From: a virus
Reading direction: 5' to 3' (one strand)
Virus record (IMG/VR): IMGVR_UViG_3300042564_000257
Coordinates: 1-23,421 of that record
Length of the DNA: 23,421 bases
Under the pieces are notes generated by a model. The model worked only from the letters and a program-made list of their open reading frames with translations, made no database searches and had not been told where the DNA came from. The position numbers were made by a program, and so were the translations under genes. Numbering within the stretch: position 1 is the first letter of the stretch; each line of letters starts with the position of its first letter. Below are positions 3,006-10,565 of the stretch, piece after piece.

Positions 3006-3221
3006 ATGAACTCAGTTGATATGGCTAATGATCTAATCTTTCGTGCAAAGAACTTAACTGAGTTTACTATTACTACAGAAGTTCCGGATGAATTCCGATT
3101 TAATGGTGAGATTCCATTTGACATGCAGATTAAAGATAGTATAATAACAGCTAAAGTGTGGGCAGTTGACTTCGACGAGGCTGCAAAAAGATTAGATGAT
3201 TTTTTAGGAACATGTAAATGA
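3006..3221 (+). CDS. Small protein of unknown function (71 aa)
   Basis: ATG 3006 lies 2 nt after the preceding stop and the gene ends in an ATGA overlap with the next. The sequence looks like a small alpha/beta domain: an N-terminal helix (MANDLIFRAKNL), beta-strand-like segments, and a C-terminal helix (FDEAAKRLDDFLG). No family is recognised. It belongs to the folE-queE gene run by spacing. Confidence 0.65.
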   Translation: MNSVDMANDLIFRAKNLTEFTITTEVPDEFRFNGEIPFDMQIKDSIITAKVWAVDFDEAAKRLDDFLGTCK

Positions 3222-7591: not shown

Positions 7592-7620
7592 TTGACGTAA
7601 CGACTGTTAGGCAGTATAAT
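7592..7620 (+). promoter_or_regulatory. Strong sigma70-type promoter of the MoxR gene
   Basis: -35 TTGACG (7592-7597, 5/6), a 17-bp spacer and a consensus -10 TATAAT (7615-7620). Transcription would start near 7627, giving a leader of about 42 nt that holds a small GTTAAA/TTTAAC inverted repeat (7634-7656) and AGGAG at 7659. The spacer has a minor TAAC/GTTA repeat. Confidence 0.8.
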
Positions 7621-7668: not shown

Positions 7669-8766
7669 ATGAGCGAGATTCTTTCACGTACAGTTGGCCC
7701 TAAGGCAGCAAAAAAATCCCTTCGCCGTGCTTTTAAAGCCAAGCGTCCATTGTTCCTGTGGGGTCCTCCAGGTATTGGCAAATCCGACATTGTTAAACAA
7801 ATGGGCGTTGAGCTCGATGCTCACGTAATTGATATCCGTTTGAGCTTGTGGGAGCCTACCGATATTAAAGGTATTCCTTACTTTAACAGCACCTCTAATA
7901 AAATGGAATGGGCTCCTCCAATTGAATTGCCAGATGCTGAAATGGCTGCAAAGCATAAGCAGATTATCCTGTTCTTGGATGAAATGAATTCAGCGGCACC
8001 CAGCGTACAGGCAGCGGCTTATCAGTTGGTTTTGAACCGTCGTGTTGGTACGTACTACTTGCCAGACAATGTTCTTATTGTTGCGGCAGGTAACCGTGAA
8101 ACTGACAAGGGTGTTACTTATCGTATGCCTGCTCCGTTGGCTAACCGTTTTGTTCACTTGGAAATGAAAGTTGACTGGGAAGACTATTTTGGGTGGGCTG
8201 TTGACAATAAGATCCATAAGGACGTAGTTGGCTTTTTGACTTTCTCTAAAAAGGATCTGTACGACTTTGATCCGAAGTCAGCGTCACGTGCGTTTGCTAC
8301 TCCACGTAGTTGGGCATTTGTATCTGAATTGTTGTTTGATGACGAAGAAGATACAGACACATTGACCGATTTGATCTCGGGTGCGGTTGGTGAAGGATTG
8401 GCTGTTAAGTTTATGGCACACCGTAAGATTAGCTCAAAGTTGCCTGATCCTACAGACATCCTAAACGGCAAGGTTAAGAAAATGGACACTAAAGAAATCA
8501 GTGCCATGTACTCTTTGACTGTGTCATTGTGCTACGAATTGAAGGATGCCGCTGACAAGCAGGACAAGAAGTTTAACGACAAGGTTAACTACTTCTTCCA
8601 GTTTATGATGGACAATTTTGAAACTGAATTGGTTGTGATGGGTACCAAACTTGCATTGACACAATACCAGTTGCCATTGGATCCGGATGAGATCAAGTGC
8701 TTTGATGACTTCCATGCCAAATATGGTAAGTACATTGCGGCAGCTACAGAAAAGCATTCACGCTAA
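7669..8766 (+). CDS. MoxR-type AAA+ ATPase
   Basis: Walker A is GPPGIGKS (32-39), Walker B is ILFLDE (100-105), sensor 1 is near N142 (VAAGNRE), and an arginine finger is likely at R160 (LANRF). The WEPTDIKGIP segment (61-70) and PAPLANRFVHLEM are typical of the MoxR/CbbQ/NirQ branch. MoxR ATPases act as chaperone-like remodellers, usually encoded beside a VWA-domain partner, as here. Start 7669 has AGGAG at 7659-7663. Leu codon use is unusual: 24 of 33 are TTG and none TTA, with no AGA/AGG Arg codons, unlike neighbours rich in TTA/CTA and AGA. It is not a close match to my memory of cyanophage CobS, another AAA+ protein. Substrate unknown. Confidence 0.9.
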   Translation: MSEILSRTVGPKAAKKSLRRAFKAKRPLFLWGPPGIGKSDIVKQMGVELDAHVIDIRLSLWEPTDIKGIPYFNSTSNKMEWAPPIELPDAEMAAKHKQIILFLDEMNSAAPSVQAAAYQLVLNRRVGTYYLPDNVLIVAAGNRETDKGVTYRMPAPLANRFVHLEMKVDWEDYFGWAVDNKIHKDVVGFLTFSKKDLYDFDPKSASRAFATPRSWAFVSELLFDDEEDTDTLTDLISGAVGEGLAVKFMAHRKISSKLPDPTDILNGKVKKMDTKEISAMYSLTVSLCYELKDAADKQDKKFNDKVNYFFQFMMDNFETELVVMGTKLALTQYQLPLDPDEIKCFDDFHAKYGKYIAAATEKHSR

Positions 8767-8782: not shown

Positions 8783-8811
8783 TTGACAGGAGCTTCGGCT
8801 CCTGTTATAAT
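8783..8811 (+). promoter_or_regulatory. Perfect-consensus sigma70 promoter of the VWA gene
   Basis: -35 TTGACA (8783-8788), a 17-bp spacer and -10 TATAAT (8806-8811), matching both boxes at every base. Transcription would start near 8818. The spacer is almost wholly the TTCG hairpin listed separately. Confidence 0.85.
8786..8805 (+). terminator. TTCG-loop hairpin inside the promoter, probable moxR terminator
   Basis: ACAGGAGC-TTCG-GCTCCTGT is a perfect 8-bp stem with an extra-stable cUUCGg tetraloop, 19 nt after the moxR stop. The following TATAATAT is U-poor, so termination may be partial. The same bases form the spacer, plus the end of the -35 box, of the next promoter. Confidence 0.6.
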
Positions 8812-8842
8812 ATATACATACAGTAAATATTTAGGAGCAAAA

Positions 8843-10018
8843 ATGTCAAGTTATTTAGATCCAATCGTTGATAAAATTATTGTAGCACGAGTCGGTCTGC
8901 TACTACGTCATCCATTTTTTGGCAACATGGCTACACGCCTTAAGATTGAAGACGCAACTGAGTGGTGTGCTACTGCCGCTACAGACGGACGTCACTTATA
9001 TTACAATCGAGACTTTTTTGCAGACTTAACTACTAAACAGGTTGAGTTTGTTGTAGCACACGAAATTCTGCATAACGTGTTTGAGCACATGCTCCGTGTA
9101 GAAGGACGTGATCGTAAGATTTGGAACATTGCCGCTGACTATTCAGTCAACGGTACTCTTGTACGTGACCGTATTGGTGAATCTCCTCCTAAGATTAAAA
9201 TCTTTCACGACACCAAGCACTACGGCAAAAGCTCAGAACAGATCTATGATGAGATTTACGAGTCGATGGATGACGAAGAACTCGATGCTCTTGGTCAGTT
9301 GTTAGACGAGCACATCGATTGGGAAAAGGAAGGCAAGGGTCGTCCTGCATATTCCAAAGAAGAGCTCAAACAAATCCGTGATGAGATCAAAGAAGCTATG
9401 ATGACAGCGGCTCAGGCAGCGGGTGCGGGAAATGTGCCTGCAGAGATTGGTCGTATGATCAAAGAGCTTACTGAGCCAAAGATGAACTGGCGTGAGATCT
9501 TGCGTCAACAAATCCAAAGTACTATTAAGAATGACTACACCTTTATGCGTCCTAACCGCAAAGCATGGCACATGAGTGCCATTTTGCCCGGTACTAACTA
9601 CGACGAGACTATCGATATCTGTATCGGTATTGACATGTCTGGCTCTATTGGGGACGATCAGGCTAAGGATTTTATTAGTGAAATTAAAGGTATTATGGAC
9701 GAGTACAAAGAGTACAAGATTAAACTCTGGTGCTTTGATACTAAGGTCTATAATGAACAAGACTTTGACGGCTACGGTTCTGACATTATGGAATACGAAG
9801 TCAAAGGTGGCGGTGGCACTGAATTTGATGCCAACTGGAACTACATGAAAGAACACGATATCAATCCTAAAAAGTTTATCATGTTCACAGACGGTTATCC
9901 TTGGGGTAGTTGGGGAGATGAAAACTACTGCGATACAGTATTCATCATCCATGGCAATAACACTATTGTTCCTCCATTTGGTGCTCACGCATACTATGAG
10001 TCTAGTAATAAAACTTGA
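8843..10018 (+). CDS. Metallopeptidase-like plus VWA domain protein, partner of the MoxR ATPase
   Basis: ATG 8843 is chosen because AGGAG (8833-8837) precedes it and the promoter covers the upstream part of the open frame. The N-terminal half resembles the putative metallopeptidase domain of the DUF2201 family: HEILH at 73-77 (HExxH) and NIAADYSVN at 95-103, the Asp or H82 being possible further zinc ligands. A charged helical linker covers about 140-215. The C-terminal half is a VWA domain with MIDAS residues D264-x-S266-x-S268 (DMSGS), T326 (GGGGTEFD) and D350 (FTDGYP). Such proteins are commonly paired with MoxR ATPases. Proteolysis is not proven; the domain may only bind metal. The 3' end overlaps the next gene by 23 nt. 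Confidence 0.88.
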   Translation: MSSYLDPIVDKIIVARVGLLLRHPFFGNMATRLKIEDATEWCATAATDGRHLYYNRDFFADLTTKQVEFVVAHEILHNVFEHMLRVEGRDRKIWNIAADYSVNGTLVRDRIGESPPKIKIFHDTKHYGKSSEQIYDEIYESMDDEELDALGQLLDEHIDWEKEGKGRPAYSKEELKQIRDEIKEAMMTAAQAAGAGNVPAEIGRMIKELTEPKMNWREILRQQIQSTIKNDYTFMRPNRKAWHMSAILPGTNYDETIDICIGIDMSGSIGDDQAKDFISEIKGIMDEYKEYKIKLWCFDTKVYNEQDFDGYGSDIMEYEVKGGGGTEFDANWNYMKEHDINPKKFIMFTDGYPWGSWGDENYCDTVFIIHGNNTIVPPFGAHAYYESSNKT

Positions 10019-10565
10019 TCCTGATGCATTCAGTGCCGGCCAAATTGAAAGTAAAGTTTGGGCGGCACGTGAACTAGAAACAGTAGTGGCTCAACAGAAA
10101 ATTGAGCCACTACGTATTGCCATCCTAGGTGGATGGTATGCACTACTACATTTTATTCTGCAGACTAGAGAACGTGTCACAATAGAATACTGTAGATCAT
10201 ACGATGTTGATCCGGGTGCGTGTATGGATGCAAATCTTATCAATAACACTTGGGAAATAAAAGATTGGCAGTTTAGATCGTTTCCTAGAGACGCTAATAA
10301 AGCCGTATATAATGACAACATTAATCTCGTAGTCAATACATCAACTGAACATTTTGCCAGCAAAGAATGGTATGATCGTATACCAGAAGGAACATTGTGC
10401 TTGTTTCAAGGCAATGATCTAATTATAGATGATCACGTACAGCGTCCAGAAAATTTAGAACATTTTAAATCTCTCTGGCCTCTTAAAGACCTGTTTAGTG
10501 GATCGTTGTATTTTGATTTTAAAGATGCGCCTTACACTAGACATATGACAATTGGTTACAAATAA
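9996..10565 (+). CDS. Putative class I SAM-dependent methyltransferase (189 aa)
   Basis: The frame is open from 9918, but ATG 9996 gives a natural start (MSLVIKLDPDAFSAGQ). A glycine-containing motif-I-like turn follows beta-1 (RIAILGGWYALL, 40-51), then an acidic beta-2 end (YCRSYDVDP, 65-73), and NTSTEHF (114-120) at the position of motif IV; later comes LCLFQGNDLIIDDHV. This pattern fits small phage proteins annotated as class I methyltransferases. Target is unknown. It overlaps the VWA gene by 23 nt, so it is likely made from the same transcript. A 12-bp hairpin lies within its early codons. Confidence 0.65.
   Translation: MSLVIKLDPDAFSAGQIESKVWAARELETVVAQQKIEPLRIAILGGWYALLHFILQTRERVTIEYCRSYDVDPGACMDANLINNTWEIKDWQFRSFPRDANKAVYNDNINLVVNTSTEHFASKEWYDRIPEGTLCLFQGNDLIIDDHVQRPENLEHFKSLWPLKDLFSGSLYFDFKDAPYTRHMTIGYK
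10083..10113 (+). other. Strong intragenic stem-loop (12-bp perfect stem)
   Basis: Arms GTAGTGGCTCAA (10083-10094) and TTGAGCCACTAC (10102-10113) pair perfectly around a CAGAAAA loop, 65 nt after the VWA stop and inside the methyltransferase-like gene. No T-run follows, so simple intrinsic termination is unlikely. Roles in pausing, RNA stability or translation are possible. Confidence 0.6.

Follow-up and report, generated by a model that had tools for sequence, protein, structure and literature searches.

The window analysed here, a 23,421-nucleotide stretch of viral DNA, is a piece of a large tailed phage genome, and its ATPase gene places it nearest, among annotated phages, to PA5oct, GAP32, 121Q and other jumbo phages. 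This gene (7669-8766, + strand) encodes a MoxR-like AAA ATPase of 365 aa, which matches the Pfam families AAA, AAA_3 and AAA_5 above cut-off and PHROG 1297, an ATPase family, with an E-value of 1.9e-100, and it is preceded by a promoter of its own, TTGACG-N17-TATAAT (7592-7620, + strand), which is devoid of a hairpin and provides a control from the same genome. The next gene on the same strand encodes a VWA-domain protein of 391 aa counted from the ATG at 8843 (8843-10018, + strand), composed of a DUF2201_N metallopeptidase-like and a DUF2201 VWA-like domain (PF13203, E 1.4e-39; PF09967, E 1.9e-14); these matches speak against the label HNH endonuclease carried by PHROG 1314, in which the protein is grouped. 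Its ribosome binding site is probably AGGAGC (8834-8839, + strand), and relatives often have a GGAGC-type site. Rfam and tRNA scans of the whole window gave no match. The ORF following the VWA gene contains a perfect 13-bp inverted repeat, GTAGTGGCTCAA/TTGAGCCACTAC, with a 5-nt loop (10083-10113), which is terminator-like on the minus strand only.

Between the two genes the window reads TTG ACAGGAGC TTCG GCTCCTGT TATAAT (8783-8811, + strand), and direct reading agrees exactly with the original prediction of a TTGACA at 8783, a TATAAT at 8806, a 17-bp spacer and a perfect 8-bp stem with a TTCG loop at 8786-8805. The terminator-like hairpin ACAGGAGC-TTCG-GCTCCTGT (8786-8805, + strand), for which covariation, the moxR tree and loop asymmetry provide the evidence given below, occupies the spacer with its arms at 8786-8793 and 8798-8805 and its loop at 8794-8797. 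The -35 box TTGACA (8783-8788, + strand), which is the same in all 25 distinct junctions, contributes its ACA as the 5' base of the stem, and the TGT of the extended -10 element TGT-TATAAT (8803-8811, + strand; TATAAT at 8806-8811) forms the 3' base; in RNA the stem can be extended to 10 pairs through G-U and U-A. The adjoining TATAATATATAC (8806-8817, + strand), which relatives keep either as TATAATATATAC or as TATAATATAAGT, comprises the -10 element and would in read-through RNA be a poor stand-in for a U-tract. The promoter agrees with the consensus at 12 of 12 positions besides having the extended -10, and exact TTGACA-N14-20-TATAAT occurs twice in the window against an expectation of 0.10, the other case being TTGACA-N16-TATAAT with a hairpin-free spacer, enclosed by an ORF (3118-3145, + strand; ORF 3006-3221). 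Among hairpins of the TTCG or GNRA type, that of the element is the only one in the window with more than 7 pairs, and the 91-nt fold around the element has a z-score of -2.6.

The element is strongly conserved among relatives. A moxR-like ATPase protein search, which is blind to the hairpin, gave 80 viral contigs (set 1), and TTGACA-hairpin-TATAAT/TATACT with a 17-bp spacer is present in 79 of the 79 junctions that could be read fully, L003 being excluded because the contig end cuts its junction. A divergent moxR, used as query in a further search equally blind to the hairpin (set 2, in partial overlap with set 1), gave 78 assessable junctions, and the element is found in all 78, following the strict pattern in 76 (72 perfect and 4 with the innermost pair open); the remaining two are L550, which has TACAAT, and L518, in which a two-sided change, TTGACG matched by CGT, affects the pair containing the last -35 base. 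Contigs in IMG/VR that come from related samples cannot be treated as independent, and for this reason distinct sequences were counted and a tree was used. The boxes are invariant or nearly so across relatives, and what the original prediction had named as contrary to it, namely boxes kept and stem lost, is not the pattern found: the stem letters vary among junctions (GGAGC, GGACC, GGGTC, GGGAC, CCTCC, CCGCC, also CCACC and GGGCC), yet pairing is complete in the 25 distinct homologous junctions, where pairs are formed in 200 of 200 stem cells and 40 two-sided changes occur. The covariation score of these junctions is 0.51 as compared to 0.13 in shuffles, none out of 500 being that high, and the moxR tree implies at least 13 stem state changes and 18 loop changes. 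The promoter of moxR itself, TTGAC-N17-TATAAT (or TATACT), is present 46-60 nt before moxR in 26 of 26 relatives checked, and the best stems in its spacers have 2-5 pairs, mostly 2-4; as this spacer is unfolded in the same genomes, the fold belongs to the VWA promoter and not to the promoters of these phages generally. The gene order, with moxR upstream and VWA downstream, is constant in all junctions read across the lineage. We can conclude that the promoter-spacer hairpin is a real and selected feature.

The loops are informative as to the level at which this selection acts. YNMG loops are found in 15 of the 21 distinct stem-loop combinations of set 1 (10 of them UNCG) and in 21 of the 22 distinct perfect combinations of set 2 (11 of them UNCG), the latter with a C-G closing pair. 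UNCG and YNMG are classes of unusually stable RNA tetraloops. The predicted TTCG loop is borne out as the commonest loop but it is not invariant among relatives. In IMG/VR, at least 119 viral stretches contain the pattern TTGACA-N4-CTTCGG-N4-TGTTATAMT and none contain its counterpart with the mirror loop CCGAAG, and the 30 CTTCGG contexts beyond the moxR locus comprise 21 perfect stems, 8 with a single sense-strand G-U and none with A-C (sign test p 0.008). Furthermore, 37 of the 39 hairpins with an upstream gene sit behind a co-directional gene, a difference from non-hairpin promoters that has the expected direction (Fisher p 0.06). Other phage contexts outside the moxR locus add 31 stem-loop combinations with perfect inner stems. 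Since loop class, loop orientation and wobble are all strand-asymmetric, and a cruciform or dimer site predicts no bias, these observations favour selection at the RNA level.

This bears directly on three explanations in which the RNA hairpin has no function. That the inverted repeat arose by chance inside an ordinary strong promoter has nothing in its favour beyond the single sequence, and can practically be discarded in view of the covariation in 25 junctions and the conservation in both search sets; indeed, among 30 exact N17 promoters of a 383-kb relative, only the one at the moxR-VWA locus scores as a hairpin. Quasi-palindrome correction, in which template switching at replication copies one arm onto the other, is a known mutational mechanism that could act without selection and predicts two-sided changes without G-U intermediates, and such intermediates are indeed lacking at the moxR locus. 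It leaves unexplained, however, the fixed C-G closing pair, the loop length of 4 nt and the YNMG loops, as well as the missing mirror loop and the persistence of the element throughout about 150 junctions. Relatives with complementary arms but free drift in stem position and in the length and class of the loop would be in its favour and are not seen, and the mechanism appears highly improbable. A slightly better but still very poor prospect is that the repeat controls promoter opening at the DNA level, either as a cruciform, as the original prediction had considered, or as a palindromic site for a dimeric regulator. The placement of the repeat exactly between both boxes and the nearly exclusive Watson-Crick pairing of the stems at the moxR locus, as in a two-strand palindrome, would agree with such a role, but a stem that exists in at least 8 sequences is an unlikely target for sequence-specific binding, and loop orientation, G-U asymmetry and the position behind co-directional genes all indicate RNA. 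As a separate matter, GCTCCT in the right arm could in the window act as an anti-Shine-Dalgarno sequence towards AGGAGC, and this reading was rejected because the pairing is lost in relatives with other stems.

If the hairpin is selected as RNA, the question is what it does after the moxR gene, and here the corresponding junction of relatives is instructive. In PA5oct, GAP32 and 121Q an ordinary intrinsic terminator follows the ATPase gene, and a search with the PA5oct ATPase gave 17 distant contigs, in 13 of which this gene is directly followed by a GC hairpin with a T-run, several of these 13 having a separate promoter-like site further downstream of the terminator. Of the same contigs, L459 has a fused terminator-promoter form, L462 has a junction hairpin without a full T-run, and a terminator is missing from the junction of L458 and L460. 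An element CCTTGTGCGCCTACCTATGTTACTCCCTACCTA is conserved in L462-L473 after the ATPase gene and just before the terminator. In the 383-kb relative, T-tract terminators are built on an AGGACC-TTCG-GGTCCT core, as in AAAAAGGACC-TTCG-GGTCC-TTTTTTTT, with a TTCG loop in 8 of 18, and in Morganella phage MP1 the core GGACC-UUCG-GGUCC is annotated as a rho-independent terminator. Like intrinsic terminators with C(UUCG)G, the window element is a GC-rich hairpin with a stable loop following a stop codon, and it has the hairpin core in common with them as well, but where these have a T-tract the window element has TGTTATAATATAT, since the -10 box occupies that position. Because the same junction and the same core carry T-tract terminators in relatives, the spacer hairpin looks like the terminator hairpin of the lineage with the U-tract exchanged for a -10 box. 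A BLAST search of the hairpin-promoter sequence against annotated phages, which is insensitive with so short a query, gave no full-match isolate among the matches listed, and the three matches inspected are plain T-tract terminators.

In the window the stem is not immediately followed by the U-tract of about 7-8 nt expected in an intrinsic terminator, the tail TATAATATATAC having 4 T in its first 8 positions. The d'Aubenton-Carafa D, calculated with newer energies, is 0.4 for the window element, near the classical cut-off, and ranges from -3.9 to 11.2 with a median of 0.9 in relatives, whereas two canonical terminators of the 383-kb relative, calculated likewise, reach 37-50. With a poor U-tract and such a score, termination may therefore be partial, and partial termination would seem as likely as complete termination. 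These properties could also be expected if, instead of truly terminating transcription, the hairpin mainly protected the 3' end of the moxR mRNA by blocking 3' exonucleases, marked this mRNA for processing, or attenuated read-through in part, with the promoter being independent of it; the very stable UNCG and YNMG loops would suit a barrier too. Classical T-tract terminators nevertheless hold the same position in distant relatives and the hairpin core is that of the lineage's terminators, and we consider this explanation rather unlikely, albeit the most serious of the rivals weighed here.

The 29-bp element is instead probably a fused intrinsic terminator and sigma70 promoter, which would end or cap the moxR mRNA and start the VWA mRNA. 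The original prediction that one sequence does both is favoured by the strong sigma70-type promoter and by an RNA-selected hairpin where relatives terminate, while with the weak U-tract termination may be inefficient; it is the best reading because the RNA-selected hairpin in the promoter spacer occupies the position of the relatives' ordinary terminator. Polymerase coming from the moxR promoter at 7592 would transcribe the spacer into a very stable C(UUCG)G hairpin just past the moxR stop codon, where the hairpin would end, or at least stall and cap, the moxR mRNA, so insulating the two genes. For the VWA gene, host-type RNA polymerase would begin transcription near 8818, about 7 nt past TATAAT, and as this is downstream of the hairpin, the latter should be absent from the VWA mRNA and present only in RNA reading through from moxR. 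The end of the moxR RNA, the efficiency of termination and the VWA start site are what we infer from the sequences in this scheme. The base of the stem would be made of the promoter itself, the ACA of the -35 box pairing with the TGT of the extended -10, and stop and start signals can therefore fit one site. With a separate moxR promoter present in every relative checked, it is plausible that the element sets the ratio of ATPase to VWA protein.

Fused stop and start signals are already known as the promoter early stem-loop (PeSL) cassettes of T4-like phages such as RB49, phi1, PST and nt-1 (Arbiol 2010 and Comeau 2014, via PMC4503421), which the latter study by its title describes as 'Composite conserved promoter-terminator motifs' that mediate shuffling (cited in PMC4503421). 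The window element has in common with them a strong sigma70-type promoter that forms one unit with a GC-rich stem-loop, and the layout is as in RB49. This phage, in which PeSL cassettes were reportedly described, has within the 134 kb examined 9 promoter-like sites whose spacer can form a stem of 6 or more pairs, for example TTGACA-ggggatcaccgatcccc-TATACT, and we infer that these are the published PeSLs. PeSLs are however multi-copy shuffling cassettes spread across hypervariable regions, whereas the element described here sits at a single fixed spot: the 383-kb relative has 37 consensus promoters and a perfect GC-rich spacer hairpin in just one, at the moxR-VWA locus. Genes are shuffled between PeSL copies, but the moxR-VWA order is constant and there is no second copy for recombination, and on account of this single copy and fixed synteny a mobile cassette was rejected. 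Unlike in PeSLs, furthermore, the ACA and TGT of the boxes are the stem base and the loops are UNCG/YNMG. The window element may thus work like a PeSL, but it is not classed as one, because the layout is common to both and the multi-copy and shuffling features are absent. The virion RNA polymerase promoters of phage N4 likewise contain a hairpin, but there the hairpin acts as DNA and sigma70 boxes are absent, whereas the evidence for the window element favours RNA. The haloarchaeal virus HGTV-1 has an inverted repeat with a promoter-like motif before many genes, which its authors compare to PeSLs (PMC3950731); by description this joining resembles the window element, and the archaeal TATA-like box and the many copies set it apart.

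More speculatively, these elements may belong to a widespread and uncatalogued class of composite signals in dsDNA phages that save space, in which the -35 ACA and the extended -10 TGT of sigma70 boxes are the base of an RNA terminator hairpin. Compensatory change, and not mobility as a cassette, would keep them at fixed loci, they could terminate without a real U-tract, and the same solution would have been reached independently before the tRNA-Ser genes of Eubacteriaceae; we hold this to be possible, though doubtful as a whole. If true, a single 29-bp sequence performs the two opposite jobs of starting and stopping transcription, and would be the fixed-locus counterpart of the mobile PeSL cassettes. 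Its evolution would furthermore be a clean natural experiment, in which the same bases are under constraint both from the promoter boxes and from RNA pairing, and strand asymmetry lets RNA constraint be told apart from DNA constraint. How an intrinsic terminator can function with a -10 box as its U-tract would become a question open to direct test.

Similar layouts were also seen elsewhere. On bacterial chromosomes of Eubacteriaceae and relatives (L328, L336, L337, L350, L361, L365 and L376), TTGACAGGGGC-GAAA-GCCCCTGTTATAAT, with GCAA or TTCA as alternative loops, lies just ahead of a tandem pair of tRNA-Ser genes (tga, gct), and has the hairpin-in-spacer layout with a GNRA-type loop. In another phage group (L087, L135, L191, L256, L259, L265 and L325) hairpin-spacer promoters are followed by a similar leader, ttatgatgatgtggataatacgactatacaa. 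Finally, an 11-kb part (87-98 kb) of G001, the contig of L172, holds a cluster of about 18 consensus promoters, all on the same strand, several of which have TTTGGGC/GGCAG-like letters in common in their spacers, perhaps constituting a family of early-gene promoters with a motif of its own.
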